This document shows positions 2,212 through 63,912 of a stretch of 64,000 bases of DNA, one piece after another (position 1 is the first letter of the stretch; the number at the start of each line of letters is the position of its first letter). The position numbers and the translations under genes are program-made. Source of the DNA: Heterotrichella gracilis (taxonomy: Eukaryota; Sar; Xanthophyceae; Tribonematales; Xanthonemataceae). A model generated the notes under the pieces. That model did no database searches. It was not told the origin of the DNA and saw only the letters and a program-made list of their open reading frames with translations. Location of the stretch: NCBI GenBank assembly GCA_032358255.1, contig JAULBX010016749.1, positions 25,889 to 89,888 on the forward strand, read 5' to 3'.

Positions 2212-5200
2212 CAACAGGTGGCTCAGGGAGCTGCGCAAGGTGGGGTGTGAGGGGTTGTGGTAGGGTTTTACATGTGTTGGGAACCCCGGGACATTCTGAC
2301 TGCAGGAACCTTGTGACAGTGTTTCATACCAGCTTGGCTGGAATCTCCGCATCAAGTTTTGCTGTGCACCTGCGCGCCGCTAAGAACGCCGGTAGCTGCA
2401 TCATCCATGACATAAAAACCCTAGACGGCCCTAAAACCCTTAGCAAATGTGCATGTGCAGGCTGCCAAGATGGCCCTAGAAAACCCTTACAAGCCCTGCA
2501 CCAACCCCCCCAAACCCTTATCAAGTGCGCACCTGCAGGCCGCCAAGAAGGCCCGCAGCTTCCAGCTGCAGCGCATCATCAGGGATATAAAGGCGGGGAA
2601 GGAGGCCTCCGCCAAAGGTAGGGTTGCTTGCCGTGGTGCACCACTACCTAGTAAGCCACACTGCAATTCAGCATTGCAGCGAGATCACCAGCACATGGTT
2701 GGCTGTGGCCTTTGCAACCCTACACTGTGTTGCAAGAGTTCCCAGGGTTCTGGGGTTATGTGTCAGGTAATTTAATGACCGGCAAGTGGCTTTTGCCCGT
2801 ATGAATTGCAAGGTTTAGCCTGCTCATCAATTGCATTGCTTTCCCCCCTTGCAGACGACGTCGTCAGCCGCGGAGCCAAGAGCGAGGAGCTGCTCCCATT
2901 GGCCAGGAGCGTGCAGCTGGATGACATTGTGGAAAAGGTGGGCACGCGAGAAATTGCATGAATTGGGGTAACATTGGGGTGTTGGGCACCTGTGTGCTGG
3001 TCAGGGACTATCCATTGGATAAATACTAGAAAAATGTAAAAGATGGCAGGGAGGTATCTACTGAATGTGATGATGTAAGGGTGCATTTTGAATTTTTTTT
3101 AGCACGCACATGTCCACCACCCCTTGTGTGACAATAGAAGTATTTTTTACACGTTTGCACCTGGTGAGACCTTTCAGGAGCAAATAAGCATGCAATTGTA
3201 TTTCTTTATATAAAACTCTTACCTAGGCTTGATGCATGCAGGCCGCGTTCCTGTGTGGGATCGACCCACAAGCAGCCATGGAGTCCAAACCTGGTGCAAC
3301 ACCAGCCAATGACAAAGAAGATGAACCATCACCAGGCAATGAAGATGCACCTGGTTCATCACCGGCCAATGAGCAAGGAAATGACCCATCACCAGCCAAT
3401 GAGGAAGGAGGTGGTCCATCAGCAGCCAATGAGGAGCAGCCAGCAGCAGCCCCAGGCAATGGAGTCACAGGGGAGCTTCGAGACCGGCTGATGGGGCGCA
3501 TGCTTGGGTGCAAGTGCCTGAGGGAGCAGGTGGCTGCCATACTGGAGGAGAAGGCCAAGAGGGCAGGTGGGTGCTCGGATTTGATGGTTGTGAGGGAGCA
3601 GGGGCTGTGCAGTGATGTCACCCCCCTGGGCAATGTAGGGGCGTTTGGAGACCTGTTGTTAGGGTTTGTGGATTTGTCAGAGTTTATCCCGAAAGCGGCG
3701 ACCCAACTATATACAGGCATTGGTCCTTGCGCATCGCCAGGCTGTGGTGCATGCTGCTGGCCTCTTGAGTGGTTTTGCAGGAATGTGGGGCCCAGGTGGT
3801 GGCAGACTACATGGTCTGGTCTAGGTTGTTTGCCTCCCAACTCTACCCTTGTGTGTTCTCTATTTCTTTGTTGCTGCGTGCAGCTTGGGATGCTGCCAGG
3901 CTCATTTGCTGGTAACGGACTGGGACTGTGCAGCTGTGTTTAGGGTTTAGGTTTTGGTTTATCCTTGGTTGTTACCGTGCAGCTGCGGAGGCCAAGGAGG
4001 CAGAAGAAGAAGAAGATGCGCAAGGGGAGGAGACAGGGGTGTCCCCCCGCGCAGGCCCCAGCCAGCCTCCGCAAGGGGTGAAGAAGCCTGGTGGCAAGAA
4101 GCGTAAGGTGGAGAGCGGGAGTGACAGTGAAGGGGAGGTATCTGAGGATGGGGCTGCTGCGGGCCTGGTGCTGCAGCGCCTGGCGCATGCAAGGTGGGTA
4201 GGGCAGGGAAAAGAACATGGGGAGGGATTTGTGGATGCGCTCTAATCTTATCTTTTGCGTGTTCCCCTGATCTCGTACTCCACGTGTGTGTCTTGTGCAA
4301 CCACCCTTACTAAGCCTTGACAAGTTCTAATACCGGGAATTGGAAGCATGTGAATTTGGGTGTGATGGAGGTCCACTAAAATTTTGTTTCCTACCCGTGC
4401 AGGGATCAGGGGGAGGAATCAGGCAGTGATGAGTCGGGTGTGATCGGGTGGTCTGACATGGATGAGGAGGGGGGCAGCGATAGTGAGGAGGGGTCCTCTG
4501 GCGGGGAGGGCCACAGTCGGCATGGAGGGGGGAAAGAGAAGCCCGGGGCTGGTGGGAAGGTGCGTCCGCATGAGGAATACACTGAAGTGAAGGTGGACAG
4601 AGTTTTGGGTTGAAATTTGCATTGTCCAATGTGATGCGCTCCCTGGCAATTTCTTGGCTTCGACCCGATCATGGCAGGGAGGATGATTAAGTGCCTGCAT
4701 GGTGTATTTTTTCTTGACATGTGTCTGCTCTCCTCTATGAAATAGACGCACAAACAACCCTAACGCTCCAAAGCCCCTGGCAGTGCACCTCAACCTTGCC
4801 TTTGACAACCAGGGAAGGTCATGTATCAAAGCACAGCATATAAGTCAGGACCCAGTGTGAATTTGTTGAATTGCCTTTCTTTGGCCTTGTTTTGCAGGGC
4901 GGGGCCCCACCGCATCAGGGCGGCAAGGGGAGCGACAAACAGGAAAAGCAGGGGAAGGGACCACCCAAAAAGCAGCCCAAGAAGAAGAAAAATAGGCTGG
5001 GGCAGCGGGAGAGGAAGCGACTGGCGCTGGCCCCTGAAGGGGGACACGACAAGTGGAAGAAGGGCGGGGTGGAGAAACGGGGGGAGAAGGATATCCGCTT
5101 CAGGGAGAGGGGAGGGAAGCAGGGGGGGCAAGGGGAGCGGCTCCCACCCCCACCTCCCTGCACTCTGGCCAATGGTGGCGTGGCTGGGGGTGGCAGGGGG

Positions 5201-6085
5201 CCCGGGCGTGGGGCGGTGGGGGCCCGTGGCGGCAGGGGTGGGGGCCGCATGGGGGGTTCACGTGGGGCGCATGTGGCGCAGCCTGGTGGGAGGGGGCAAG
5301 GGGGGATGGCCAAGGCACAACCTCCCAAGGCGCAGCCAGCCAAGGTGGGTAAATTGCATTGGCAAGGGGAGTGGAGGCATGGGGTGTAGTGGTGGTGAAG
5401 TGCATGCTTTGCAGCATGGGGTGTGGCGGAAAGGGAATTGCGTTGCATTTCCGTGGCTTGACAGTGGTGAGCCTGGTGTGGGTATGGTGGCATGCAGTCT
5501 AGGTATAATTGAGGGATTTTATGCGGTCATTTTGCATTTTATCGTTTCCATTTGCAATCCTTGCTGACCCACCAGCAACAGCATCGTTTGCACAGTTNNN
5601 NNNNNNNNNNNNNNNNNNNNNNNNNNNNNNNNNNNNNNNNNNNNNNNNNNNNNNNNNNNNNNNNNNNNNNNNNNNNNNNNNNNNNNNNNNNNNNNNNGGT
5701 TTCCCGCCACTCAACCAGCAACAGCATCGTTTGCACAGTTGGTTTCCCGCCACTCAACCAGCAACAGCATCGTTTGCACAGTTGGTTTCCCGCCACTCAA
5801 CCAGCAACAGCATCGTTCGCACAGTTGGTTTCCCGCCACTCAACCAGCACCTTTCAGGCATGCTTGGCAGCTGGCGCTGTAGGGCAAACACATGTTGTCA
5901 TCCCGTGGCAAGACCTGCTGCATCGCCAGCCTGTCACTATCTGGCTTATGAAAAGGGGAAGCTGACTGTGATCAACGTGTGTGTAGGAGGAGGCGATGCA
6001 CCCGTCGTGGGTGGCCAAGAAGGCCATGCACCAAAAGATCAGCTTGGATGCGCCCAAGGGCAAGAAAGTGGTGTTTGATGATTGA
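2212..6085 (+). CDS. BUD22/SRFBP1-like ribosome biogenesis protein (5' end uncertain)
   Basis: Phase-consistent exons are 2539-2617, 2855-2937, 3242-3566, 3983-4193, 4403-4559, 4898-5344 and 5987-6085. A likely upstream exon encodes WLRELRK and ends at a donor near 2238. No start codon could be assigned. The N-terminal AAKKARSFQLQRIIRDIK resembles the basic helix that opens BUD22 proteins. The last exon gives HPSWVAKKAM and ends GKKVVFDD-stop, the diagnostic BUD22/SRFBP1 tail. Between them lie acidic Ser/Asp/Glu tracts, Lys-rich clusters and a Gly/Arg-rich stretch near 5160-5340, as expected of a nucleolar protein. Yeast BUD22 works in 40S subunit maturation. Exon 4 carries internal SPAN-type repeats of about 10 residues. 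The last intron holds an assembly gap. The family call is firm, the 5' end is not. Confidence 0.8.
2365..2480 (+). repeat. Two decayed partial copies of the next BUD22 exon
   Basis: The exon at 2539 begins after CACCTGCAG and reads GCCGCCAAGAAGGCCCGC. Upstream in the same intron, 2365-2417 reads CACCTGCGCGCCGCTAAGAACGCC and continues with a diverged CATCATCCATGACATAAA. About 2449-2475 reads CATGTGCAGGCTGCCAAGATGGCC. Both keep the flanking acceptor-like context and the order of the true exon, but key codons have changed. They look like tandem partial duplications of the acceptor plus exon start. Confidence 0.75.
5574..5848 (+). repeat. 43-bp tandem repeat interrupted by a 100-N assembly gap
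   Basis: The unit begins GGTTTCCCGCCACTCAACCA and ends GTTTGCACAGTT. Full copies lie at 5698-5740, 5741-5783 and 5784-5826, with a partial copy after them and another partial copy before the gap. Positions 5598-5697 are exactly 100 Ns, the usual placeholder for a gap of unknown size, so the array is probably longer than shown. It lies inside the last intron of the BUD22-like gene. Confidence 0.95.
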
Positions 6086-7391: not shown

Positions 7392-9994
7392 ATGCAGCCA
7401 GGCGTGCCTGCGCCATCCACATGCAAGGCCAGGAGAAAGGTGAGCATGGGAAACAACACGGCTTGCACAGCTGCCGGCCTATGGGTATGGCGGAGCAGTG
7501 TTGAGCCATGGGTAGCAAACCACAGGATGCAGTGTATCAACCCTTGGGAGGGTGGGTTGACACGCTGGGCGTGGCTTTGCTAGGGTAAACTCCCGGCGAC
7601 AGCTTGTGCACTGGCTCGCCACTTACCTTTGAACCTGCAAGTATTCACGGATGAAGGGATAGGGTACAATACTTGGCGCGTATGGTGCCACACCCGCTGC
7701 ACATTTATCCCTACAGAAACCCTTGAGAAAACCCTTGTACAGGGTTCTCGATGGCTGCGCCCCCTCCCGCTGCTATTGGCCATGCTCACCTGCTGCTCCC
7801 TGCTGGTCTACGCGTGGCTCAGCTGGACCCTAAGCAAGGGTTTCCGGGAGCCGGGGTACCGCGTTGTGCGGCGAAGGAACATAGGGCACAGCAAGCACAA
7901 GGTGAGCAGGGGCTAGGGTTTAGGGGTTTGGGAGCCCCAGTGGCAGCCTGGCTGAGGATGGGAACCCCTGTTGGGGTTCAGCATCCCCTTCGTTGCTGGG
8001 TGTAGGGTTTATCCCCGTTTTGCATGCCCTATACCCTTGGGGCCGCTTTGCGCCTCAGCTCTCTGCCTTGGAGAGTTTAATGGACATGACGAGGTATACC
8101 CTACTCCAAACCCTGCCATGTATTCTACACAGAAGCACGAGTGTTACTGCACAACCACAGGGCGATTGCAGGGTAGTAGACCTCACTCCAATGCCGTACC
8201 CTACCGGTCTGCAAGATACCCTAAAGCAAACCCTCCCGCAGGGCCATCATTGGACGGTGGACCACACCCAGTGGGGCGGCAGCGCCAGCGCGAGTGAAGC
8301 CACGTGCCGCCACCTGGCGACATTCGACGCCTCTGGGGATGGCAGGGGAAACGCGTTATATGTCAAGGGGGCGGCAGGGGGGTGGCCGGGGCTCAAGCTG
8401 CTGGGGAGGAAACACCTGGAGCGGAATTCATTTTTCAGGTGGGTGGGGTTTAGGGTGTAGGGTTTCAGATATATGGGGCTCGGGTTTAGGGTGGTACCTG
8501 GGTGCTGCATAAGGATTCAGAGGGTTAGTGGCTTGTGTTGCAATGGCTGGCTAAGCATTTCCCATTGACATACACTAACACTCTCCCCCCACTTTCCCTG
8601 CAGTGGGCAGCTATTAGTCTCCCCTACCCCCGTCTTCAGCATTTTCAACAACACCACGCAGCTAGCCGAAACAGCCTTCCAGGCCCCTAACGGCATCCTG
8701 CCGGGGCGCATCGTTGAAACCACATTTGCAGAATTTGTGCAACGAGCGGGGGGGCACCGGCGGGGCATAAATATGAAGCCTGTGGCGTGGCCCAAGGAGT
8801 GGTATTACTGGTCCAGCGTACCTCCCCAGTGGGGTGGGGTGAGGGAGATGCTGGGTGACCTCCCCTTTACCTGCTTTAATGCTTCCCAAGGTGGGTAGTG
8901 GAGGGGCGGGGGTGGTGATGGAGGTGGTGGTGAAACAATGTAGGATGGAGTAGCTGGGCAGCTGAATCATCAACAGATGCATGCATGCAAGCAGTGGGAA
9001 GCAACAGAATACCGAAAGCCTACCAATTCCGTGTCGCCACCAGTACATGGCGTCAACCAGCGGGGATGTGGACCACCCCGCCAAATCAGTCAAACCTAGA
9101 CCCCCCACTGCCACCTCCAAACACCCGCCAGTACTTCCAGCACACCACGGGGTCAAAACCCCTCCTCCAGAACCCCAAACCCTCCTTCAAATTTTGAACC
9201 CCGCCCCCACGCAGGTCCCCACCGGCGGCTGGCGGGAGGCGTGCGCATTGGCGGTGCCAGGCTGCGTGTGACCCCCAAGGGTGCTGAGCACATGCTGCAC
9301 TACGATGACGCAGCCAGCATGGTGGTGGTGGTGGAGGGCAGGAAGCAGGTGGGTGGGGGGTTGCGGGTGGGTGCAGGGGATGTGATAGTGGAGGGTGGTG
9401 GTGGGTGCATCTGCAGCCTGGATGCAGCCTTGGTATATACCTTAGGGCGCAGATGTCGTGACACGTGGCACATTTGTGTGGTGGACGTGTCACCACATCA
9501 GTGGCACATGACCACCCCCATGTGACAGTACATGTGCTGTTCGTGAACAAAAATCCCCCCATATGTAACCACCCACATGTGCACATGCCGCCCCTCATGT
9601 CCACGGCCAAGCGACCACGCATATCGTCCTCCCCTTGCGCCTCTCGGCACCCTACCAAGCACCCTACCAATATACCTTCCTTCCTCCCTACCAAGCACCC
9701 AGCAGCAGCAGCAGCAACATCCCATTCCCTCCTGCTCCACAGGTTACCCTTGTCTCCTCCCTTGAAGTGCCCTACACCTACCCCTACCCCCCCAACCACT
9801 ACCTCGCCAGGCGATCCCAAGTTGACCTCAACAACATCAATTTCACCGTGTTCCCCCTGGCCAAATTCTTGCATCCCCACAAGGTGGTGCTGGGTCCCGG
9901 GGATGCTGTTTTGTTCCCGCCCTACACGGCGCACGTGACAAAGAGCCTCACACCGGTGGTGTCACTATCTCTGAGGCTTAGAGCGCTGGACTAG
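7392..9994 (+). CDS. Type II membrane cupin_8/JmjC-like 2-oxoglutarate dioxygenase
   Basis: Six exons, all in phase: 7392-7439, 7743-7901, 8161-8438, 8604-8890, 9215-9348 and 9743-9994, giving 385 residues. A short basic N-terminus (STCKARRKGSRW) is followed by one hydrophobic helix, about residues 23-44, so a signal-anchored Golgi/ER lumenal protein is likely. The C-terminal third has the cupin_8 layout: a strand ending in LHYDD, then EGRKQVTLV, a VDLNN segment, LGPGD, and PPYTAHVTKSL. His286, Asp288 and His366 form the expected HxD...H iron triad. Members of this fold hydroxylate protein or tRNA side chains; the substrate here is unknown. The central region (residues about 70-258) is unrecognised. 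The start was chosen because it gives a perfect phase-0 join to the membrane helix. A partial copy of the last exon lies 330 bp downstream. Confidence 0.8.
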
Positions 9995-10324
9995 GGTTTG
10001 GGTAGGGGTTTTCCCTGTGGTTTGCCTGAGCCGGCGGGTCGTCAGTATCATTTTGTTTATGCTTACTTTGTCGCGCGTGTGATTACCAAAATTATTCCTG
10101 CGTTGCAACTCCTTGCTATTCAAGGCTCCTATGCTCTGTACACTAAACGCCAAACCCTTTTACATGCCATGCCTGCGGGCATTGGCTAACTAGGCCTCCG
10201 GGCCTACCCTTGACCAGCCGTTCTGGCTGGTGTGGTGCCCTGGTGCGAGCCAGTGGCCCCCCAACTACGCCTCTGTGCGTTCCCTTTCTTTCTTTCTTTC
10301 TTCTGGACCCTCAAAGAGCCCTAG

Positions 10325-10455
10325 GGGTACTGTTTCCGCCATACACGGCGCACGTGACCAAGAGCCTCACCCCCGTGGTGTCGCTGGCTCTGAGACTGAG
10401 GGCTGTGGACTAGGGCTTAGGGGTTGCCTATGCTTTGCCTGCGCCGCGGCGGTTA
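10325..10455 (+). other. Second copy of the cupin_8 gene's final coding segment
   Basis: This repeats the end of the preceding gene, from VLFPPYTAHVTKSL through the stop codon at 10411-10413, plus some 3' flank (TTTGCCTG..GCCG). Over about 29 codons I count 13 synonymous differences and only two amino-acid changes, Ser to Ala and Leu to Val. The metal-binding His and the stop are kept. A TTTC-rich pyrimidine tract (about 10280-10300) followed by AG lies just upstream, so it could act as an alternative last exon. It may instead be the remnant of a paralogue whose other exons are lost. Confidence 0.75.
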
Positions 10456-43200: not shown

Positions 43201-44736
43201 GAGGCCGCACCCCCAGTTGCCTTGGCTGGTGATGGGGAGGGTGGGGGTGGAGACGGAGGTGATGGTGGTGGGGACGGAGACGGTGAGGGTGGCGTAGGTG
43301 GTGACGGTGGTGGTGGCGTTGGCGGTGGTGGCGACGGCGAGGGTGAGGGTGGCTTGGGTGGTGGGGATGGCGAAGCAGTGGGTGGTGACGGTGGAGGTGG
43401 TGTTGGTGGTGGCGGGGATGGTGGTGGTGGTTTGGGTGGTGGCGATGGTGATGTTGTAGGTGGTGATGGTGGTGGTGGTGATGGTGTTGGTGGTGGCTTG
43501 GGTGGTGGTGATGGTGATGTTTTGGGTGGTGACGGTGGTGGTGGCGCTGGTGGTGGTGGTTTGGGTGGTGGTGATGGCGATGTTGTGGGAGGTGACGGTG
43601 GTGGTGGTGTGGGTGGTGGTGGGGATGGTGGTGGTGGCTTGGGTGGTGGTGAAGGCGATGTTGTGGGAGGTGACGGTGGTGGTGGTGTGGGTGGTGGTGG
43701 TGAAGGCGGTGGTGGATTAGGTGGTGGTGGTTTAGGTGGTGGTGGCTTAGGTGGTGGCGACCGCGATGTTGTGGGTGGTGTGGGTGGTGGTGGTGAAGGC
43801 GGTGGTGGTGTAGGTGGTGGTGGCTTAGGTGGTGGCGACCGCGATGTTGTGGCTGGTGACGGTGGTGGTGGTGATGGTGGTGGTGATGGTGGTGGTGGGG
43901 ATGGTGGTGGCTTGGGTGGTGGTGAAGGCGATATTTTGGGTGGTGACGGTGGTGGTGGTGTGGGTGGTGGTGGGGATGGTGGTGGACGAGGAGGTGGAGA
44001 CGCTTGAAGCAAGCTCCGACCTACAGTGCAGGGAGCGGGCCTTTGTATGCCAAACATAGAGGCTAAGCTAGCCCCTGTGGTTGGCTCAGCTGGGTTGGAG
44101 TGCGCTCAAACAACTCCAGTCACTTGCAAGGCATGTTTTAAAACCCTTTCGGGGTTTCACTTGACAAATAGCCAGGCTGCAGAGATGACAGGTGGGTGCT
44201 GTTTTGGCAAGGCAAGCCAGATCTGTAGAGCACGTGCACGCTTGGCCTAACCCCGTGGGCACAGAACTGGAATACTTGCAAGCCGTTGTGCTAGCTATAG
44301 CAGCTAGAGCCTGGTGCCAGTGTACTATAGTCCGCTTTGCAGTATGCTACAGTAAGCTTGTCGCATATGCAGGTGCTTGCAGAGTCTGCAAAGAAACGCG
44401 GAAAAGGACCCTCGTGACGAAGCTTCAGGTTCGGTTGCTTGCACCGCATCAGCAGAAAAAGCACACCCCATAGCCATCCAGCGGTTTAACTGTCCTCAAA
44501 GCACAATCGTTTACCACCCAAAGCCTGTCGAAGGCTCCTGGGTGAACAACCTTGGGCGAAACGCCGGTGTGTGCATGTACCGGGCTGGCTGGTCTGCTTA
44601 GAATATTGTGTCATGCCGTACGATTTTCGTTGCCGCCAGGTTGTCTTTCGCCCTCAGCCGCTTGCGCGCCAAGCTGGGAAGCCCCGATCAACGCCAGTAG
44701 CAGCAGCAGCGCGCATGGCACCCTGCTGCCTGCCAT
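25282..44736 (-). CDS. Giant secreted Pro-rich, Cys-module extracellular matrix-type protein
   Basis: I predict 33 exons and about 2,210 residues. Order: signal-peptide exon (44622-44736), Pro-rich exon (43163-44020), 15 Cys-rich A modules alternating with 13 short B linkers, a 439-residue C-terminal exon (25669-26985) and a short Cys-containing last exon (25282-25367). Nearly all junctions are phase 1, so A and B exons are symmetrical and can be duplicated or lost without a frameshift. The protein enters the secretory pathway, and the Pro-rich part should be hydroxylated and glycosylated. No enzymatic motif was seen, so a structural cell-wall, matrix or adhesion role is inferred. The donor of exon 1 (C|GTACGG) is weak; it was chosen because the phase fits and gives RRSLLQ, close to the RRLLQ motif of volvocalean secreted proteins. 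Gene boundaries rest on hand splicing; fusion of two genes is not excluded. Confidence 0.75.
25669..26985 (-). other. C-terminal domain of the giant protein
   Basis: A single 439-residue exon opens GTSAISINYTFPSAPGYAI and includes PSGFTMQFFQPGVN, an acidic FDDDGSYLDYYP segment and RRRKLLQ. Further RR-LL motifs follow (VRRLLD, HRRRQLLG). A Thr-Gly-Gly repeat then precedes a helical Ala-rich end (AAWKAAIGATAAT) and a Cys pair before the final exon, which adds NPAACKCPAGE. I do not recognise the fold. The same domain exists in the truncated neighbour with a much shorter Gly/Thr linker. Three RR-x-LL motifs could be proprotein processing sites; that is inference. Confidence 0.7.
25975..26095 (-). 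repeat. Coding Thr-Gly-Gly minisatellite
   Basis: A 9-bp repeat (GGTGGTACT and variants on the minus strand) encodes about a dozen Thr-Gly-Gly units in the C-terminal domain of the giant protein. The truncated paralogue has only a few such residues at the same place. This accounts for almost all of the 97-nt length difference between the two exons. Confidence 0.9.
28239..28260. repeat. Interstitial telomere-like repeat
   Basis: AACCCTAAACCCTAAACCCC in an intron of the giant gene is the C-strand form of TTTAGGG repeats. Confidence 0.8.
29760..29775. repeat. Poly-C tract
   Basis: A run of about 14 C bases lies in an intron of the giant gene just after the A13 exon donor. It is a simple homopolymer and a likely place for length errors in the assembly. 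Confidence 0.85.
31663..32062 (-). repeat. Intronic minisatellite carrying copies of a splice acceptor
   Basis: Read on the minus strand, the intron before exon 31486-31661 contains about six repeats of a unit of roughly 60 bases with TCTCCTGTTGCTGCCC, the same pyrimidine tract that precedes the true acceptor. One copy (about 31740-31770) also includes CTCTCACAG followed by ATACCCATTCTA, an imitation of the first bases of the exon (GTACACATTCTG). CCCTAAACCC-type strings are embedded in the unit. The truncated paralogue lacks the expansion. Confidence 0.8.
35170..35520 (-). repeat. Intronic minisatellite carrying copies of a splice donor
   Basis: Immediately downstream of the A8 exon donor (GATC|GTGAGTGCCCC at 35518) the intron has four to five repeats of about 60-70 bases. 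Each holds a variant of GGGGCACTCACGATCAGCAG, the plus-strand version of the exon end plus donor, followed by TTTAGGGTTTAGGG. The copy near 35370-35395 is almost perfect. The equivalent intron of the truncated paralogue has one copy only. Confidence 0.8.
39255..39315 (-). pseudogene. Decayed duplicate of a B linker exon
   Basis: The functional linker exon at 39359-39400 (encoding DYTPTCSPTAPQPQG) has a second copy about 100 bp further along the minus strand, in the next intron. The copy keeps the TATCCAG acceptor and most bases. It lacks one base (ACTATACCCAACC against ACTACACGCCAACC), which shifts the frame. Its donor is also damaged (CAAGTGCGC against CAAGGTGGG). Confidence 0.8.
43163..44020 (-). 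repeat. Coding minisatellite: hydroxyproline-rich SPP/TPP/KPP domain
   Basis: About 286 residues begin RSLLQASPPPRPPP and end with a Gln/Ser/Val-rich exit (SGSQPTSVPGTRG). The core is Pro-Ser/Thr-Pro runs punctuated by a recurring SPSPPPKPPP or SRSPPPKPPP unit, roughly nine times. Composition matches pherophorin and other chlorophyte hydroxyproline-rich glycoproteins, which form extended rods. The plus strand reads as long Gly-rich and Val-rich open frames, which are shadows. Confidence 0.9.
44622..44736 (-). other. Signal-peptide exon of the giant gene
   Basis: The ATG at 44736 opens MAGSRVPCALLLLLALIGAS, then QLGAQA. That is a short polar N-terminus, a run of Leu/Ala/Ile, and small residues before a likely cleavage site near AQA|AEG, a textbook secretory signal. 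The frame stops a few codons beyond the proposed donor, so splicing must occur. The exon ends in phase 1, matching the next exon. Confidence 0.7.
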
Positions 44737-45637: not shown

Positions 45638-45663
45638 GCTGGGCCGCACAGTGTGCGCACTCG

Positions 45664-45671
45664 TATTTATA
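45664..45671 (-). promoter_or_regulatory. Candidate TATA box of the giant gene
   Basis: The minus strand reads CAATATATAAATACGAG, containing TATAAATA. The corresponding place in the duplicated block upstream of the truncated copy has the weaker TATATGAATA (24216-24225). It lies within the conserved block, about 930 bp upstream of the ATG (about 410 bp if the inserted element and its duplication are discounted). Confidence 0.45.
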
Positions 45672-49000: not shown

Positions 49001-51174
49001 GACTTTGCTTTCCTTTTCTTATCAAGGTTTTTAACACTTCATTTGTGTGCAGCGTGAGGACTGGGAGCATGTCCAGGAGGCTGCTGATGACGACATCGAC
49101 ATGGGGGAGGGGGATATATTGGATGATGACGAGGGCGTCACCGCGTTCAAGAGGTAGGGTAAAGGGTTTTAGGGTTCAGGGTTCAGGGTTTTAGCGACAC
49201 AGTGTTCAAAAGGTAGGGTCATCCCTGGTTTGTGGGGTGCCGCCCATTGTGGGGGCGTTCTGTTTGCATGTTATCCTGGTCCAGTCCCCAGTGCTTCATT
49301 TGCACTTGTGGTCGCCACACAATTGCTCAACGCACCCTTGAGAATTCTGCATGCCTGGTCATTGCTGGAAACCGGCCGTTCCCTAAACCCCCACCCTCCC
49401 TACCCCCTCCAGTCCAGCCACCCCTAGGCTTGGGCCCCACTGTGTGGGTTGTGGCAGGGCTGTAGGGGGTGAGTCATACGAGGATGTGGATGGGAAACAT
49501 TCGCTGAATAGCCACCCCAAGCCCAGCCTGACTATTCTTGCATTTCCTGACGAGAACAAAATCTACTAATTCCATATAATATTCAAAATTAATTACATGC
49601 GTGTCACGTTGCTGCATCTTTTGCGCGTGTGCAGGGCGGTAGGAGGGGGTGAGTCTGACGACGAGGAGGACGAGGATGGCAACAAGCTCAGCAGTTCAGG
49701 CAAGGAGCTGCAGCAGCTGCTGAAGAAGACAGGAATCGCATCGGACTCGGATGACGAGGACAGGTAGGGAAAAACCCAAACCCTAGCCTAGGTTTTCCCT
49801 AGATTCTAGGGCCTAGGGGAAACAAAAATCCTAGGGAAAACCTAGCGATGCTGTTTATAGGGCTTTTGGTGCAGGAGGGGTTTAGGTGGTTAGCATGGGC
49901 ACCAAATCATGCGCGGAGGGCCAGGACAGGTAGGTGGACCTTAGGGGGCCCTGCAGTAGGGTATTTGTGAGGGGCGTGGCGTTGGAAGTTGACTGGACTC
50001 CCTTGGTACCTCTACACTCCCAAGAAAGTACATTGCAATTACAATCAGCATCACTCATGTCAGCATCATGCGACCATCACGTCATCATCCCAACTGATCG
50101 CTGCGCTGGATCGTTCAGGCCACGTGCGGGATCGGAGGACGAGGAGGATTACGACGATTTGGATCGCATGGCGTCCACCATGCTCCCTGAAGCCTCCCCC
50201 CCTGCGGCCCAGCAGCTGGCGCCGGCACCCACCGCCCCTGTGGCCGGTGACCAACCCAGGGTAAGGAGTGCAGCGGTGGGGGTTTTGTCGTATGGTGGGG
50301 GTGGTGGGTGTTAGTGGGGTATAGTCTGCAAGCTGGGGTCACATGGTGCAAGGAGGGGCAAGTAAGGGGGCATGGGGAGTGCAAGTGGGTGACAATTGTT
50401 GCTATTGATTGGGACCCCCGGGGAGTGCAAGGGGATGATGAGTTGTGTGCAAAGGGGTGTCACCCGCAGCGACCCCATTGGGTGGTGGCCAACCCTGGGC
50501 GGGAGTTGCCATCTGGGGTCGAGAAACACACCAAAAACCTGCCTAGGGTTCCCACACCTTTTCTAACGCCCTGCCACCCTGCCTGAAACCCTACTCAAGG
50601 TATTGACAACCCTAACACCTGCTTGAAACCCCCTGCTGAAGGAGGCAGCCAAAGCTGCCCGCAAGCGCAAGCCCCCCTCTCCCACCGCTCCAAAGGCAGG
50701 GGCAAAAAAGAGCAAAACCGGGGAGGGCGAGGCAGCCCCCAGCACGAGTGGGGGTGTGAGCGAGCAGGATGTGGTTTCGCATCTGGCATCCACCGGGCCC
50801 ATCCCCATCAGCGAGCTGTCCAACAGGTTCAAGACGCGGCTCAAGGTGGGTGGAAACCCTTGGAAAAGGCCCTTGAGGTTCCCTAAAACTCTAGATAGAA
50901 ATCCTAGAATATCACCCACATTCCAGCTTAATGTATCAACATCCATAATTGTGTTGCCGGAGCAGAGTGGCCCTCCTCCCCACTTCATGATCTGCACCAG
51001 CCATGATACATCACATTCCGGCGTAGCAATATCCTAAACCCTCGCCCTCTACTTGTGCAGACTCCGGAAGACAAGAAGGCTTTCACCGCCATTGTGAAAA
51101 AGGTGGCCAAAATGGAGGAGCACCCTGCTGGATCTGGGGTCAAATGCGTAACCCTTAAGGTGAAGCCAGCCTGA
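46059..51174 (+). CDS. Transcription initiation factor IIF subunit alpha (RAP74)
   Basis: Eleven exons: 46059-46103, 46344-46412, 46719-46831, 47179-47317, 47730-47874, 48249-48454, 49053-49153, 49635-49763, 50119-50260, 50642-50845 and 51061-51174. All join in phase to give 468 residues. TFIIF binds RNA polymerase II and helps assemble the pre-initiation complex; alpha pairs with the beta (RAP30) subunit. The N-terminal dimerisation domain shows EFVLRAP, GSGATYFLFVKEG, FVALPVGDWYTFRP and VEEEM, in the family order. A long acidic middle (residues about 172-345, DDDEE-type runs) follows. The C-terminal winged helix (about 397-468) reads SEQDVVSHLASTGPIPISEL and ends VTLKVKPA. The start MADNLASTKS is the only in-frame ATG before the first donor. 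Introns after exons 7 and 8 hold partial copies of exon ends. Confidence 0.92.
49191..49490 (+). repeat. Partial copies of TFIIF alpha exon 7 end and exon 8 start
   Basis: Exon 7 ends GCGTTCAAGAG|GTAGGGT; 49198-49219 reads GTGTTCAAAAGGTAGGGT. Exon 8 begins GCAG|GGCGGTAGGAGGGGG with TGAGTCTGACGACGAGG after it; 49452-49485 reads GGCAGGGCTGTAGGGGGTGAG followed by TCATACGAGGATG. In each case the copied piece contains the splice site and the adjacent exon bases. A weaker echo of the exon 8 donor (GGACAGGTAGG) lies near 49922-49934. Confidence 0.65.
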
Positions 51175-53039: not shown

Positions 53040-56000
53040 ATGACCCTCCAGCCTATGACAGGCGCCATTGCGGTGCTATGTGTGGCGCTGCTGGCCAGTG
53101 ATGCCCTGGCGCAGCAGTGCCGCATGCCCCCTTCAGCCGCACCCACAAGCTGCGGCCTGCCAGTGAAGCTGGCCAATTTCCAAGGTGGACAATGGGGTGG
53201 ATTTGATGGGGATATGTGTGACGAGGGCAGGGTGGATGCCATTGGGTGTTACAATACGTTATGTCATGTGCACCCTCTCTTGTGTCTCCTCCCCTCACAG
53301 ACGCCGCACACTTCCCTCCCCCTACACCCCCATTCCAACACTTTACAGCCCGCTTCCACGCCCTTGCGCAGGGTATTGAACCTCATGGAACCCCCTAACA
53401 TTAGTCTCTGCACCCTAACCCCATTCCCAAACCCTTGCGCAGGGTATCACGGCTGCAGCGGTGGTGTGATGGTTGGTAGGCCCCGCAACATCACCCAGGC
53501 ACAGGCCATGATCCAGAAATTCGACAAAGTCAAGGCGGTGGCGGTGGGGGCATCTTGGAACGAGGCCCAATTCTGTGCCGGGATTGACAGCCGGTCTATC
53601 AACATTGTGATGACTGAGCTGGACAACGTGCTGGCATTGTAAGTTATGACTAGGTTGTGATTAGCTGGGATAGGTTATAATTATGTAGGATGACTGAGAT
53701 GGACGACGTGCTGGCGTTGTGGGTTGTGATTGTGTGCTGCGCGTGTGCGCATGCTCGCGGGCGATGTCCTGCATATGCATGCATGCAAATGTGAGGAATC
53801 GATCACCCCTGATTTGTCCCTCGCCACAAAATCGACTACCTTGTCACTCATGCGTCATGCTTGCCGCCACCCCAGTGACCTCCATCCTCCACCTCCCCTG
53901 CACATGCCATCACAATAGGATGCCCAGAGTTACCTAAACCCTAAACCCTGCCCTGAAACCCTTGAAGTTGCCCTAAACCCTTAAACTTGCCCCTCTCATG
54001 CAGCATCCTGTCCAATGGCGATGCATCCCAAGTGGCCCCAGGCCAGTTCCCTATTCAAGTCAACGAATCAGAGCCATCCGTGACCGTGGATGCGGGCATA
54101 CCCCAGCGCATGCTGCTCGACTACCTGGCGGGGTACAACAAGGGGAGTAACCCCAAGGGGTGGACCCTCCCCGCCTTCAGCTGGTTTGTGGACCAGACAA
54201 TCGGCGGCGCTGTGGCCACCGGCACGCATGGGAGCTCCTTCAGATATGGCAGCCTGTCCAGCCAGGTAGGGAAACACAAACTATTTTGATAACTAGAATA
54301 ATGTACAGGCCAAGGTGGCACGAAAGTGAGGAAGTGTGCTAGGAGGGACACGCTTACTTGCCATGCCCTGCAACAATAAAGAAAATTGTTGAACACATAA
54401 ATTCCGTGTATCCCTTTTCTGCTTTCCTCCCCGATTCTGTGCATTAACACACCCTTCAACTTCCCCGCTTCTCACAGACCCTGGCCATCCAAGTCCTGCT
54501 GGCAAACGGCACACTCACATGGTTCACACCCCGCGCCCACCCTCACCTCTACCGCGCCCTCATGGTCAGCGTTGGCCGGCTGGGGATAATCACAAAGCTG
54601 AAAATGAGGATCATTCCCCAGCGATCGGTCAAGCGCACCCGCACCGACCTCAAGTTCGATGCCATGGTGAACCAGCTTGGAGCGGTGCAGGATGCGTACA
54701 ATCAAGCAAAGGAGGCGAGGTCTGCGGCTGCGCTGCAGGCCGCCCTGCTGCAGCTGGACCGCACACAGGCAAACCCCTAAACCCTGGACCCTAAACCTTT
54801 GGATAGGGTATTGCTATGCTGGATTGAGGCGCCAGCTGGGTGCATATGCCAGCATGCAGAGCATTTGTCAGCGGGTTTTGGTGCTTTCAATACAGAATGA
54901 TGTGATACCATGACAATGAATCATCAGATGCAAAGCCCATCCCAGTCCTGCATATAATAGTATGAATGTTCAAAAGATTCGTAACACAGCTTCCCTTCCC
55001 ACCTGCAGATGTTTTGGTTTGTGCCCACTGCCCAGGCCTGGCGCGTGGATTACCAGCCCCTGGATACCGACCCTGTGGAGGCCATCCTGAATCTGGATGA
55101 TGGGGAGCCAGGGGTACTGGGGTTCAGTGGTGCGCCAGCCCTGCATACTTAAACCTGAATCCCTAATCCTACATTCAAATTCCATGCGCACCCTCAAAGC
55201 TTTGAGACAGGGGTTCGCCCCAAGTCCTTGCATTTGAAATCCCCATTTGAGAGGTTGTCATGTATATACTGAGCGGCACCTATGCGAGAGCGGAAAACCA
55301 GCTGCTCTGCTCAGTACATACATGACAACCTCCCAAAAAATGTTTCTCAATTTTGGCAAAATTCCATTGCCCCTTTCTCCCCAGGTGACACGGTCAGCGC
55401 AGACGGCGTCTACCCACAGAAGGCCAAGCGCCCCGCGGGCGCCAACTCTGCCTTTGGAGCCAACGCCGCATTCTGGAGCAACTTCTTCTCAATGACACTG
55501 CAGCCAATCACCCAGAGCGGCACCTATGACTCGCGCAAGTCCTACCTGTCGGTGACTACCGCCAAGACCAGATATGATGGGTCCAATCCCTATGACCAGT
55601 ACGAGGTGTCCATTCCTCTGGAGTATGCTGCCTCCTGCCTCAAGGAGGTGGGTGGAAGGGGGGGGGGAACCCCTAGGAGGCTATTCTTAGGCCAGTGTGC
55701 AGTGACTGCATTTTGCTGCCCAGTGCATCAAGGTGAAATTGGGGTTGAATTGTGCTGATGAGCTGATGGGTCCAACCCCTATGATCAGTATGAGGTGTCC
55801 ATTCCTCTGGAGTATGCTGCCTCCTGCCTCAAGGAGGTGGGTGGAAGGCAGATAGTTTTTTGTTCATTTTCTAATTCATTTACTATATTGAATTTGAAAT
55901 TTTGTATTTTAACAAACAAAATATCCTAGGAGGGGCTTGAGGGCAATACCCCATGGGTCAAGGGCAGGGTCAACAGGGGGGGAGAGGGATTTGTGTGTGA

Positions 56001-58353: not shown

Positions 58354-60821
58354 TCAGTGCATGAGTAGCCGTGCTGCACCCAGCCCCGCTGTGATGAGAC
58401 CCAGCATCGTGGCCAGGGCGTATTTTATGGTTTCGTTCTTGGTTTGCTCCATCCCCGCCTTGAGGGAGTTGAAATCCCGGTCGATCTTGATCTCGAGCTC
58501 ACTGGTCTTGTCGCGCACAATCTGCGGGTGGTGGTGGGCAGGTGTGGGCGGAAGTGTCAAAGCAACATGGGTGGATTGCCCATGCGATGTTTAGGGTTCG
58601 GGGTTTAGGGTCAAAGCAGCAGGGGTGGTTGGCCCACGCAAGGGAAGAGGGCCACCCATGCAACATTGTTCAATTGCAGCCACATCCGACGATCGCATCA
58701 ATGCATGTGTGCACCAGCATGAGGCCATCGGCACAATATTGCCTCAAAGTTCCACCCATTGCTGCCCCATGTTTGACCCCCTTCCCACCTGCATTTCATC
58801 CCGCATCCTCCCCTTTTCCAGATTGAGGTCCAATCGCTGGCTGGCAGTCAGCTTGTCAATCTCATACCTGGGGAGAAAAACCACAGTAGGGTTTATGCAT
58901 AAATACCCATTTCCTACAAGTTTTGTGCCATGTCTATGCCAGGAGCCGATGCAATTGATGCATTGTGCAGTTGGTTCCAAACTATTGGCGTGTGTGGGAT
59001 GCACAGAGGGACAGGGGGAGCGATGCTTGCACATCCCATGCACCCGCATCCCACCCCACCCACCCCATGCACACCCAATCCTATATCCCCTCCCTCTCCC
59101 CAAGTCCCCTCCCTCTCACTTTATCTCCGCTTTGATCTTCTCTATGCTGTTCTGCAGCCTGTCTGTGTCCCGTGTGAATGAGGCCATGTGCAGCTCCTGA
59201 GTCTTCAGCACCTCGTTCTTCAGGCCAGCGATGTGCGCATCCTGCTCCATATGGGACTGCAAAGGGGGGTTTTAGGGTTAAAGGTTAGGGTTTAGGGAAT
59301 GCAAGGGTGGGGGGAGTGGGGGGTTGGAGATGCCCTTCAGGGCACAAGGCAATGGGGCTGATGGCGGCTGGAAATGCCTTTTACTGGTGCTGCATTATCA
59401 TGATAAAAACTGCATTATCATAAACTGCGCACCCAGGAACTGCAGGAGGGGAGGTGTGTTGGGCGGGCAGCGGGGTGCGCATGGACCCTAGCACCAGTTC
59501 TGAAGAAGTCATGCAGCTTTGAGAAAGAAACATGCTCCAATACCTGTCGTCCCATCAAAACCCATCCCTCCAAAGCCTACCCCCTGTTCTCGCACACTTT
59601 TAGGGTTTAGGATTTAAGGTTTAGCGTGCAGGGTTTGCCCTCCACTCCCCTCATCGGCACAGACCCATCCACCTTGCCCGCTGCCTGCTTGGGTGCCACC
59701 TTCACCGCTCCTGCACCTTCTCATTGCTTGCCATTAACCCTAAACCCAAAATCCTGTGCCGTAGATGCGTTCACAGGACATGTCCTGCGTTCACTGCACC
59801 CCCTCCAACCCCTTCCACCCACTCTTCCAGCGGCTGCGCAACATGCATCCCCCACCCATCCCCGGTCACCTTCTCCAGCGCATGCTTTGCAGCAAACTGC
59901 TCCTGCATCTCCTCTGCTGGACATGGACCTGAGTCATGTGCACACCCTGTCCCTTTCCCCCTTTCCCCCTCTCCAGCACCCGGATGCGTGTGCATTCCCC
60001 CCCCGTCCCTCCCCTCCCTCCCCACCACCCCCCACCCTCACCTTGTCCAGCGCCTGCTTGGACGCAAACTGCTCCTGCATCTTCTCCTTGTTTGCGCATA
60101 TGACCTGCGTGATGTGCACCGTCAGCTGCTCAGCCTGCTTGCGACTCAGGCCAGCCTCCTCAAGGGACTTCATCTGGGGGAAGGGAAACGGGGAGGTCAG
60201 GTGTGGGAGGGTAGGTGGGTGGGGTGGGAGTGGGAGTGGGGCGTTGGTTAGGGTTGGGGGTAGGGAGGGAGGGGGGTGCGACTGTGGATGTGAGGGTGGC
60301 TGTCTTGGGGCGCCTAGGGCGTTCCGTCAACAAGACGGTCCAAAGGGGGAGTAGGAGATCTAGATACTTTGGTACGGACGTTGTTTAGGGTTTAGGGTTT
60401 TCATGGGCCTGGTGTGCAACCTAAGGGGTTTGTTTTTCAGTGCGTATGGCTGGCAAGGTAGGCCTGCACAGCTGGCACATGCAGTGACACATGTGGCCAT
60501 CCTAGCGAGCACACACCCGCCTGATAATTAAACACACCTTCGTGATTTTACACCACAAAGTGCAGGTCTTCCCGTCTATGAAATTGTGTCAACCAGCAAG
60601 TGTGGTACATGCAGGGCACCTACCAGTCCCAGCGTGTCCACCAACAGGTTGCGTGCAATCGACGAAATATTGTGGGCATCGGAGGGTACCAAGCTGGAGT
60701 TCAGCCTTGCTAACTGCGAGGAACCTGCTGGCCATAGCGTTTGTTGGGCAGTGGGTGCTGCCACCAAATTTTGGCGCCAAGCTGTTTGAATCAGCTTCCC
60801 AGCCAAGCCCCTCGCCCGCAT
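58354..60821 (-). CDS. MCUR1/CCDC90/FMP32-like mitochondrial coiled-coil membrane protein
   Basis: Five exons on the minus strand: 60624-60821, 60042-60173, 59120-59256, 58789-58867 and 58354-58521; 237 residues, close to CCDC90 proteins. The N-terminus (MRARGLAGKLIQTAWRQNLV) is basic and amphipathic without acidic residues, a typical mitochondrial presequence. The family head motif follows across the first intron: VDTLGL then MKSLEEAGLSRKQAEQL. The middle is a heptad-rich coiled coil (QELHMASFTRDTDRLQNSIE, VRDKTSELEIKIDRDFNSL). One membrane helix near the C-terminus (YALATMLGLITAGLGAARLL) ends in a two-residue tail. Human MCUR1 acts with the calcium uniporter or cytochrome c oxidase assembly and yeast FMP32 in complex IV stability; which applies here is unknown. 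It is arranged head-to-head with chloroplast EF-G. Confidence 0.88.
59672..59735 (-). repeat. Degenerate copy of the MCUR1-like exon 2 end
   Basis: On the minus strand GAGAAGGTGCAGGAGC and CCCAAGCAGGCAGCGGGCAAG with GTGGATGG echo the exon 2 end GAGAAGATGCAGGAGCAG and TCCAAGCAGGCGCTGGACAAG|GTGAGG. Internal bases are lost, so this is an older copy than the one at 59863-59920. Confidence 0.55.
59863..59920 (-). repeat. Copy of the MCUR1-like exon 2 end with donor
   Basis: Minus strand: GAGGAGATGCAGGAGCAGTT then TGCTGCAAAGCATGCGCTGG and AGAAGGTGACC, against the true exon end GAGAAGATGCAGGAGCAGTT, TGCGTCCAAGCAGGCGCTGG, ACAAGGTGAGG. The frame is kept and the donor is still plausible. It lies about 130 bp into the intron. 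Confidence 0.85.
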
Positions 60822-61554
60822 CGGAACGTTATGAAATAGAAAAGCTGCACCTTAAGAACCGAAAAAGCGGGAAAAGCCAAATAGATACACGATGTCTTCG
60901 TCCAAACAACGAATCGCTGCTATTGGCCGACTGCTATCGTTTGTTGGGATGGAAGGGGATGCGATGAACCGTTGGACGCAGCTAGTCAACACTGCATTTT
61001 AGGTATTTGGTAACTATTCAAGCGCTGAAACAAACGGGTTGGGTTGTGCGTCGGGGTATTCACTTCTCAATCACAGCTGGCAATATGCATGCATTGTCGA
61101 AATGTGGTTGTGCAACCAGACAACCTGAGCTTGATTCTTTATCAATTATAACAATTGTTGCCAAGACTAGTATAGATAGCTTCAAAATAGGTGGTATCAG
61201 CCCAACAGCGCCCACTTTGAACTACGCGGGTTTTTCAGCAGGGGATTATTGACTTTTTGTAAACAGGGGAGGTCAGGATAAGATGTTTCGACCCAGCGCT
61301 CAGTCGACTCATGAGTCGCTAAGCTGAGTATGGCGGCAGCAGGCAGTGTGGAAATGCCACGACTGCCCTGCAAACCACAGCCACACCCAAACCTGCCCAC
61401 GAAAAAAAACAGTTGTGTGGCAAACGCACAAGAAGCCCTTTCAACCGTACCCCACCCGCACACCCGCCCGCTGCCCCCACTCAGCAGCACGATCCACAAC
61501 CAGCGCCAGCAACCCCGGGCTGCGACAAGCACCCACCACCTCACCCACACAACC
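60822..61554. promoter_or_regulatory. Head-to-head spacer between the MCUR1-like and EF-G genes
   Basis: About 730 bp separate the two opposing start codons, so a shared or overlapping promoter is likely. No clear TATA box was chosen. A longer upstream in-frame ATG for EF-G exists at 61330, but the one at 61555 (ACC ATG GAC) has the better start context. Confidence 0.45.
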
Positions 61555-62798
61555 ATGGACACGAGAAGTGTGTGTGGCGCGGGTGTGTCTGCCGGGGTGA
61601 CTCCCAAGCAGGCCACCCCAGTGCGCGCCAGCTCCCGCACCTCCGTGCCCTCAACCACCCACAGGGCGCAGCTCTCAAGCTTCAATGGTCTCCGCAGGGT
61701 GGCAATGCCAGGAGCACAGGTTGGATACCGCTGCCTTAACGCTTGTACTAAGCGCCTGGACTTCACCCCACTCGTGCAGTAACCCTGCCCATAGTTGATA
61801 CGTTACTTGAAGTTTCCTGAGCGCCGTTTGCACCCCCGCAGGCCGCCCGCCAGAGCACCAAGGCCGCTGCAGGCCGCAGCAACTTGGTGGTGCTGGCAGC
61901 AGCAGGTGGGTATGCTTTGTACTGGCGTTGGTACACGTTTCCCCTGACACAATGCGCTACACCAGGGCTGTGTGTGATCGTATAATAATACTAAACGCAC
62001 CCGTTTTGCCCCTGCAGAGAAGCGCGTGACCCCCCTTGATATGTACCGCAACATCGGTATCATGGCGCACATCGACGCTGGCAAGGTGGGGCACCTGTTC
62101 TAACCCCAGAGTGCCTGCTGTAAACCCCCTGACGCCTGTATATGAGTCTGTGCTGTGCTCTAAGGCAGGACCTTGTGGGTTTTGACTTCTGTTGGGTATG
62201 CCATTGCAACCTGTGGGGGATAGACCACCCTGCTAGTCCCTAACCTAGCCACAGGTGGGCCACAGCCTATTTGTAGATGAGATAGAGCTTATGTGCTCTC
62301 AAACCTATTTTCCATGTGCTGAGTGGTGGCTCAAACGCCCGCCAAGCTGTGCAAGGTGCGGGACCCTGCGTGTGGGTAGTCCCAAACCCTGGGGTAGGGC
62401 CTGGTGTCGCACACTGGCAGGCGTTGGATGGTACCCTTCAACCCCAGCCCCTCCCCTTGCAGACCATTTGCACAGAGCAGGGACGTGCTGTACAATCACC
62501 GCCACACCCTTGTCCAGACCCTAATGCCTTCAATGCACGTCTTCCCTACCCCGGTGGCCCCCTCCTGAGCTGGCTCTGATATACCGTCAAACTACCCTAC
62601 GTCCCAGCGTGTTGCCATGGTTTTTAAGGCGCGGCGGGTACTCAGTATTCTTTCTTAGTCTTACCCTCACCAAACCCTGAAACCCTTATGCTGACCCTAA
62701 CCCTTATTTCCCCCCCGCAGACCACCTGCACAGAGCGCGTGCTGTACTACACTGGCAAGTCCTACAAGATCGGCGAGGTGCACGAGGGCACCGCCACC

Positions 62799-62830
<32 letters not shown>

Positions 62831-63752
62831 CATCACCATCACCTCCGCCGCCACCACCTGCATGTGGAACGACCACCAGATCAACATCATCGACACCCCG
62901 GGCCACGTGGACTTCACCCTGGAGGTGGAGCGCGCGCTGCGCGTGCTGGATGGCGCGGTGGCGCTGTTTGATTCCGTGGCGGGCGTGGAGCCGCAGTCGG
63001 AGACGGTCTGGCGCCAGGTGCGGGGCGGGCAAGGGATTTTGCTGTATGGTTTTGGTGCCGTGAAGTCCAGGTGGACGCCAGATGTGGGGCTGGCGGGGCG
63101 GGGAAATATGATTTTGGATTTAAGAGAGCAGGGATTTAAATGCAGGGTTAGTTCTGGGTGGTGGTGTCACCGTTGTCGTTCGGACGCCAGATGGGGGGTG
63201 GGGTGAGGGCAAGGGCATAGTTGGATGGTGTCGTTGCGGTGGCAGGGTTGGAGCGCAGATGGAGGAGGCCTGGCGTCAGGTGTGGGTGCAGGGGAAGGGA
63301 GCGGGTGGCTGGTGCTCCCGGTTGGCTCATGGGGCGTTGGCACCATAGTCGTCAAATTTACATGTATGTGGACCCCCACCATGGTTACCCACCACCCTCA
63401 GGCTGACAAAAAACCCTAAACCCTAAACCCTAAACCATCCTGGGTTGACTTGGGCACTCGCGACATGGTCATCTCACCCAGAACAAACTGACAAATTCGT
63501 TTAGAAACGCGTTGACAATACAAAATGTTGATTTTCCGCCACCATCTGCAGGCCGACAAGTACAAGGTCCCCCGCCTGTGCTTTGTGAACAAGATGGACC
63601 GCATGGGCGCCAACTTCATGCGCACCCGCGACATGGTCATCTCCAATCTGGGGGCAAACCCCCTGGTGCTGCAGCTGCCAATCGGGGCTGAGGACACCTT
63701 TGAGGGGGTGGTGGATCTGGTCAAGATGAAGGCGCTAGTGTGGGGCGGAGAG
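61555..63752 (+). CDS. Chloroplast elongation factor G (incomplete at the window edge)
   Basis: Exons found: 61555-61719, 61842-61905, 62018-62085, 62721-63017 and 63552-63752, in phase, 265 residues; the rest lies beyond the window. EF-G is the GTPase that drives ribosomal translocation. Residues 1 to about 76 are rich in Ser/Thr/Ala/Arg ([20 protein letters not shown]) and act as a plastid transit peptide. The GTPase motifs follow: [16 protein letters not shown] (P-loop), [32 protein letters not shown] and [12 protein letters not shown]. The third intron splits the P-loop exactly between Lys99 and Thr100. [18 protein letters not shown] and [11 protein letters not shown] fit plastid/bacterial-type EF-G rather than cytosolic EF2. 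At least three partial exon copies sit in its introns. Confidence 0.93.
62456..62500 (+). repeat. Decayed copy of the EF-G exon 4 start with acceptor
   Basis: TTGCAGACCATTTGCACAGA followed by GCAGGGACGTGCTGTACAA imitates the true junction CCGCAG|ACCACCTGCACAGA, GCGCGTGCTGTACTA. Two extra bases shift the frame after the first few codons, so use of this acceptor would break the protein. Confidence 0.75.
63409..63436. repeat. Interstitial telomere-like repeat
   Basis: AAACCCTAAACCCTAAACCC followed by TAAACC is four tandem C-strand telomere units (TTTAGGG on the other strand) in an EF-G intron. Confidence 0.9.
63440..63475 (+). repeat. Copy of an internal piece of EF-G exon 5
   Basis: GGGCACTCGCGACATGGTCATCTC at about 63449-63472 matches exon 5 GCGCACCCGCGACATGGTCATCTC at 63618-63641 with a few changes. 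It lies about 80 bp before the true acceptor and is not bounded by splice sites. Confidence 0.7.
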
Positions 63753-63827
63753 GTGAGCGTTTGTGGGGAGGTGGAGGGGATTTGAGATTAGGAAGGGGAT
63801 GGTTGTGGGTGGTGGTGGTGATTTTTG

Positions 63828-63912
63828 CTGGTGCTGCAGCTGCCAAGAGGTGCTGAGGACACCCTCGAGGGGGTGGTGGATCTGGTGAAGATGGTGGGGG
63901 GCGGAGAGGGGA
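63828..63912 (+). repeat. Copy of the EF-G exon 5 end
   Basis: CTGGTGCTGCAGCTGCCAAG to GATCTGGTGAAGATG and GGCGGAGAG repeats the last part of exon 5 (CTGGTGCTGCAGCTGCCAAT to GATCTGGTCAAGATG, GGCGGAGAG). Ile-Gly becomes Arg-Gly, Phe becomes Leu, and a short segment is deleted, so this copy is drifting. The donor is changed to GGGGAAA. Confidence 0.85.

Follow-up and report, generated by a model that had tools for sequence, protein, structure and literature searches.

Introns of Heterotrichella gracilis carry worn copies of neighbouring exon edges, apparently left by recurrent local duplication

How introns acquire their length and the decoy splice sites within them is an open question, which is touched by copied sequences in 64,000 nucleotides of the genome of Heterotrichella gracilis (assembly GCA_032358255.1, contig JAULBX010016749.1, positions 25,889-89,888; labelled C169:25889-89888 and hereafter called the window). 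The initial annotation of the window proposed that its introns repeatedly contain partial copies of neighbouring exon ends with their splice sites, the product of an ongoing local duplication process that creates decoy splice sites and raw material for new exons. Same-strand local repeats are present at all twelve of the places listed, as well as past the stop codon of the cupin_8 gene (Table 1). At most of these places an exon edge has been copied; the exceptions are the pair at 39255, where there is no credible exon, and the copy at 63440, which derives from the interior of an exon. Introns of this genome often carry worn duplicates of the edges of neighbouring exons, apparently as a result of recurrent local duplication, which near exon borders exceeds what a neutral model yields.

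The analysed eukaryotic sequence consists of 189 kb of one genome, including the window and pieces labelled C2, C794 and C169up, taken from a draft assembly of 68.5 Mb in 903 contigs. The sequence is rich in introns, and its TTTAGGG-type repeats and TGCAG/G acceptors would by themselves suggest a green alga; a gene for the large subunit of RuBisCO was not found. Gene models are ab initio throughout, which applies to all junction and intron counts below; the gene finder, a small hidden Markov model fitted to some 186 kb of the eukaryotic DNA, predicted 313 exons (62% G+C) and 300 introns (51% G+C), with a donor consensus of CAG/GTGNG and an acceptor consensus of YYYTGCAG/G. Pfam matches support host genes for EF-G, ALO with FAD_binding_4, CCDC90-like, ABC1, Sec23/24, p25-alpha, protein kinase, SRP54 and Sec39 proteins; the BUD22 match is weak, below the family cut-off, and the putative names TFIIF alpha and cupin_8 come from the initial annotation only. 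Several copies were themselves called as exons, a warning for gene finders, and 35 such decoy or very short exons were merged before the later junction tests.

A copy of a flanking exon is carried by 28 of the 268 inner introns, a count that omits five of 37 exon-source events (at gene ends, in the MCUR1-like gene and at the last EF-G copy); a looser count puts exon-derived copies in 31 of 267 introns. With about one inner intron in ten bearing a recognisable copy, the rate, age and placement of the process become measurable. The 37 events, searched for within 600 bp of the source, have start-to-start offsets of 57-419 bp, aligned lengths of 25-122 bp (quartiles 40, 47 and 72) and gaps between source and copy of 11-307 bp (lower quartile 53). 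Exon-derived copies are 71-96% identical to their sources and intronic pairs up to 100% identical; together with the short offsets and the junction excess described below, this range upholds the proposal that local same-strand duplication is ongoing.

Direct copies predominate. In the three large pieces (164 kb, with the repetitive frame at 43.0-44.1 kb excluded), 48 direct pairs (18, 19 and 11), some of them exon-exon, were found at E ≤ 1e-3, versus 2 inverted pairs (0, 2 and 0). When 60-bp segments were searched for a same-strand copy within 1 kb scoring at least 48, one was found at 22 of the 283 donors and at 24 of the 280 acceptors, compared with 4 of the 227 control segments from intron interiors and 1 of the 148 from exon interiors; inverted copies numbered 0, 0, 1 and 2, respectively. 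These counts include decoy exons inside copies and hence some double counting. In a cleaned test with 40-bp windows at 418 junctions and a score of at least 36, a local copy was found for 6.7% of 415 junction-centred windows; the figures are 2.1-4.8% for exon-side windows, 2.7-6.0% for intron-side windows, 0-1.2% for inverted and 0-0.7% for distant controls. Local direct duplication is general in the sampled genes, with a peak at junctions, and its rate there exceeds that of random intronic segments several-fold in the sampled sequence, an excess that is not total. Two contigs of nearly 0.9 Mb, C1 and C111, look like bacterial companions or contaminants in the assembly, judging from the 50 kb sampled from each (33-43% G+C, long open frames). 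C1 yielded 2 direct and no inverted pairs and C111 yielded 14 direct and 4 inverted, so that these contigs do not make a clean control for the assembly.

In a tally of 25 events for which the authentic exon was chosen by hand, mismatches occupy 38 of 426 first codon positions (8.9%), 33 of 424 second positions (7.8%) and 86 of 426 third positions (20.2%), and 46 of 318 positions in intronic parts (14.5%), a pattern that fits the comparison of one neutral copy with one constrained exon. The splice dinucleotide is retained in 19 of 23 mappable copies (the copy at 63828, which has lost its GT, lies outside this count), where 16-17 would be expected from mean identity alone, so that the copies' dinucleotides give no sign of selection either way. 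The decoy splice sites of the initial annotation are supported at the level of sequence, being kept at close to the neutral rate, and its suggestion of raw material for new exons finds little or no backing in the mismatches. Two copies depart from this: the cupin_8 copy, with 2, 0 and 11 mismatches at codon positions 1-3, looks coding-constrained and could represent either an alternative terminal exon or what is left of a gene copy, and the copy at 55764 has 0, 0 and 3. Their third-position differences, and the prediction of several copies as exons, are what would be expected of working alternative or mutually exclusive exons, an explanation that is very improbable for the copies as a whole against the neutral pooled codon pattern and the near-neutral retention of dinucleotides.

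The copies themselves, their orientation and distance, their anchoring at exon edges, their neutral decay, the multiple copies at some edges and the junction excess are shown by the analysis. The reading tentatively preferred, with a probability of roughly 45%, is local duplication of a break-repair type, recurrent near exon edges. A segment D would be doubled in the same orientation, as when a staggered break is filled in and its ends are joined, and additional DNA would often come to lie between the two copies. An event with D inside an exon would break the gene and be lost; with D in an intron or across an exon edge, the exon-attached copy would keep the gene intact, and the other copy would persist within the intron, bearing an exon edge and its splice site, thereafter to decay neutrally. 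Repeated rounds at one edge would leave several copies of differing age, with partly related sequence as the spacer in about half of the pairs and unrelated filler in the other half. The breaks, the fill-in and a raised event rate at exon edges are what we infer from these observations.

The placement of sources and copies has the character expected of such a process. Among 64 local pairs, 30 sources straddle an exon edge, four lie within 20 bp of one and three lie deeper in exons, so that 34 of 37 touch or nearly touch an edge; 18 pairs are wholly non-exonic, and nine with both members exonic were left out further on. In 36 of the 37 events the copy is found past the nearer edge of the exon, the exception being an MCUR1-like exon that the gene finder assigned to the wrong strand, and all 24 mapped junction copies (12 donor, 12 acceptor) sit in the intron that bounds their own junction. 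An alternative is templated local capture, in which a nearby segment would be pasted into an intronic break by strand annealing or polymerase template switching; it would account for copies that are local, on the same strand and often set off by an unrelated spacer, and it resembles published repair-mediated duplications. Capture, however, predicts copies on either side of the exon, and in the 11 events for which the mirror place is also non-exonic the copy is on the near side in 10, the eleventh being the same mis-modelled exon. Exon-interior sources are also fewer (3 of 37) than the share of 0.29 expected under random pasting into non-exonic DNA (P = 0.002); the share expected under a simulated model of two D copies separated by filler is 0.03. 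Random pasting is disfavoured on both counts, and templated capture is accordingly rated as unlikely. Still less credible is an assembly artefact, for instance divergent haplotypes placed one after the other: the draft state of the assembly (903 contigs, some of them bacterial-looking) and the gap in the window would give it an opening, and the graded decay, exon-edge placement and neutral codon pattern leave it next to no probability.

A conserved exonic source keeps its pair visible longer, so that survival might by itself produce an excess at junctions. When 3176 events with filler between the two D copies were simulated in the actual sequences, non-exonic DNA being left to decay neutrally and indels being included, and were searched with nearly the same detector, junction events were detected at a rate of 0.745 and intronic events at 0.582. 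The observed junction share of 34/52 compares with a simulated 0.325 (P = 1.2e-6); in family-supported stretches, which were chosen by hand and for which the detection rates were borrowed from the simulation, it is 23/29 versus 0.388 (P = 1e-5). Circular shifting of the uncleaned models gave 27 junction-touching pairs versus 17.2 ± 3.6 and a share of 19/36 versus 0.28. We read the junction excess as real but method-dependent, about two- to fourfold.

The spacers between the copies speak for and against a further explanation, that arrays grew by tandem duplication or replication slippage and that indels and substitutions blurred them afterwards, with exon edges prominent mainly through conservation of the exonic copy. 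The spacer matches the outer flank in 9 of 46 pairs and one of the copies in 18 of 46, and thus flank or copy in 24 of 46, including 55575 (weakly; its 104-bp spacer matches a copy) and C794:43443; with four tests per pair at a threshold of 2 of 200, about two chance matches are expected. Wholly unrelated filler as a rule was dropped on account of these 24 spacers, which suggest that several rounds at one edge are common; the matches to copies also weigh against break-and-fill and in favour of array growth. Arrays at 5698, 31651, 35171, 38251 and 41310 and a strict triplet at C2:4678 are likewise what array growth would produce. The other 22 spacers match neither flank nor copy, including that of a 93% identical pair (C794:36932), and the decay advantage of exonic copies was already simulated and yields the share of 0.325, not 34/52. 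Array growth is therefore considered possible though doubtful. About half of the pairs look like two D copies with unrelated filler between them and about half like repeated rounds or arrays.

Several points weigh against recurrent break-and-fill near exon edges. The triplet at C2:4678 is strictly tandem, and the spacer matches to flank, copy or either leave room for array growth or slippage. When the models are left uncleaned and the junction rule is tightened, the sources divide into 21 junction, 13 exonic and 18 intronic (n = 52), and the exon class shrinks to three only under the looser edge rule. The size of the junction excess depends on the method, about fourfold odds by simulation and less by circular shift, and the lengths, indel rates and uniform ages of the simulation were assumed. 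The breakpoints of the model are hypothetical. The bacterial-looking contig C111 also has its 14 direct and 4 inverted pairs, and the rate of duplication, taken from one genome, may be ordinary.

If the junction excess holds genome-wide, it would imply a mutational process that favours splice borders. Exon-intron junctions might then be true hot spots of recurrent break-and-fill duplication in this lineage, perhaps tied to transcription or to the step in base composition at exon edges (62% versus 51% G+C), a reading that would also take in the telomere-like DNA that crowds the inner ends of the pairs. This stronger proposal is unlikely; if true, introns would lengthen by repeated copying of their own borders, and a single mutational source would underlie both intron growth and decoy splice sites.

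The nearest described kind of event is repair-mediated duplication and the nearest described enzymology is that of staggered-break tandem duplication. The repair-mediated duplications of vertebrates (Pace et al. 2009, PMC2671141) are short and local; the duplicated segment has just one other copy genome-wide, the copy lies apart from its source, and many breakpoints contain filler. Among the 824 human donors of that study, four are partial exon/intron, two full-exon and two intron/exon/intron; human proximal copies average 162 bp, and one duplicated exon is inverted. Exon and splice-site copies thus occur there too, as a small share, whereas the copies described here align over 25-122 bp, are nearly all direct and derive predominantly from exon edges. 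By the terms of that work, the source lies within 5 kb of the copy (here 57-419 bp) and the copy is not dispersed (here the two loci searched are unique and distant controls are near zero), and the insert is at least 50 bp long and more than 50 bp apart from its source, where the present lengths are 25-122 bp and the gaps 11-307 bp. A further mark of that class is microhomology, filler or a deletion at the breakpoints, as read against an empty site. Fill-in at staggered breaks also gives small tandem duplications (Schimmel et al. 2021, PMC8355091), which resemble the present pairs in the direct doubling of tens of bases, there between opposed nicks; those duplications were scored as directly adjacent, whereas 22 of 46 pairs here have a spacer unrelated to their surroundings. 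A limited literature search found no published report of junction-enriched exon-edge copies.

Intron gain by tandem duplication of AGGT has also been described (PMC4974935, PMC3443670). Like the present process, it is a local duplication across splice-site sequence. Intron gain of this kind predicts that the two ends of an intron are homologous in register. Aligned in register over 265 introns, the donor region and the acceptor region of each intron have identities of 0.251 and 0.248, compared with 0.250 ± 0.005 expected. This argues against AGGT duplication as the way in which introns here generally arose. Introner elements are dispersed repeats that shape many introns of some algae, whereas the copies here are local. 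Two loci that were searched in the genome, 55575/55764 of lactone oxidase and 63663/63828 of EF-G, are unique; within the 189 kb, non-local matches came from 5 of 47 spacers, four being telomere-like or simple sequence and one the dispersed element in the cupin_8 spacer. A mobile or introner-like origin was rejected on the strength of these two unique loci, the near-zero distant controls and the scarcity, within the 189 kb, of relation among spacers of different loci.

Telomere-like DNA is associated with the spacers. Rotations of CCCTAAA, counted on both strands, occur in introns at 4.7-12 times the frequency in composition-matched permutations and in exons at 1.0-1.1 times; an example is at 63410-63436 of the window. 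Telomere-like bases in spacers number 335 versus 150 ± 42 (0 of 1000). Within spacers, the outermost 30 bp are enriched 3.0- and 3.5-fold and the middle 1.0-fold; the 30 bp that flank the pair externally reach 1.2-1.6-fold, and the non-exonic parts of copies 2.3-fold. Telomerase extension of both ends was rejected: it needs the G-strand on the left and the C-strand on the right, and what is seen is G in 6 of 15 on the left and C in 8 of 12 on the right. The association stands, with no mechanism assigned to it.

Table 1. Copied segments in the window, with their sources or junctions, similarity and splice dinucleotides
Feature	Position	Strand	Source or junction	Similarity or period	Dinucleotide
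BUD22-like, acceptor and exon start, decayed	2363-2397	+	source 2526-2560	score 42 vs null maximum 31 (n=456)	AG lost
BUD22-like, acceptor	2434-2476	+	junction 2538/2539, source 2512-2554	84% over 43 bp	AG kept
cupin_8 (putative), terminal exon and stop, past the stop	10331-10446	+	source 9912-10033	80% over 122 bp	
Giant gene, array	31651-32058	-	first copy enters predicted exon 31486-31661 by 11 bp	period about 61 bp	
Giant gene, array	35171-35528	-	extends 11 bp into exon with donor 35517/35518	period about 63 bp	
Giant gene, intronic pair	39248-39316 / 39344-39415	-		88% over 72 bp	
TFIIF alpha (putative), donor	49194-49219	+	junction 49153/49154	score 36 vs null maximum 32 (n=448)	GT kept
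TFIIF alpha (putative), acceptor	49451-49495	+	junction 49634/49635	score 43 vs null maximum 37 (n=445)	
Lactone oxidase, exon end and donor	53689-53729	+	source 53609-53649	85% over 41 bp	GT kept
Lactone oxidase, exon end and donor	55764-55848	+	source 55575-55659	96% over 85 bp	GT kept
MCUR1/CCDC90-like, exon end and donor	59849-59943	-	source 60022-60119	score 98 vs null maximum 37 (n=450)	
MCUR1/CCDC90-like, second, older copy	59664-59739	-	same exon end	score 60 vs null maximum 37 (n=450)	
EF-G, acceptor and exon start	62453-62493	+	source 62711-62747	78% over 41 bp	AG kept
EF-G, donor	63249-63300	+	donor 63017/63018, source 62986-63036	score 53 vs null maximum 29 (n=462)	
EF-G, exon interior	63451-63475	+	source 63619-63643	92% over 25 bp, E ≤ 1e-3	
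EF-G, exon end and donor	63828-63912	+	source 63663-63756	82% over 94 bp	GT lost

The clearest pairs in the window are those whose copies begin at 55764, 63828, 59849 and 53689, and multiple copies at a single edge occur in the BUD22-like, MCUR1-like and EF-G genes. Pairs with identities of at least 93% include 55575/55764 in the window and, elsewhere, C794:36932, C794:18125 and C169up:3240. The edge copied in the MCUR1-like gene lies near 60041. EF-G has two further marginal copies, with scores of 27 and 28 that are reached by 2 and 1 of 462 controls, respectively. The TFIIF alpha donor at 49763 has no copy by the same comparison (its score of 18 is equalled by 289 of 446 controls); the whole exon at this donor scores 35, which is reached by 1 of 446. 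Beyond the window, the ABC1 kinase gene contains three junction copies (C2:17684, 18218 and 18373), and the Sec24 and Sec39 genes contain several.

Between the end of the cupin_8 gene and its copy lies a dispersed element of about 227 bp (10076-10302), which matches at least 40 other places in the genome with up to 98% identity. In the giant gene (16442-42971, minus strand), a short Cys-containing motif occurs 16 times at spacings of about 0.9-4.3 kb; the exon of 15 bp predicted at the pair 39248-39415 is not credible, and the pair was counted as intronic. The excluded frame at 43000-44100 is long and encodes short repeats rich in glycine and aspartate. A 43-bp minisatellite (5571-5849) lies within a predicted intron, next to a stretch of N (the window contains 100 N), and a long run of G at the contig end (63955-64000) is perhaps a sequencing or assembly stop.

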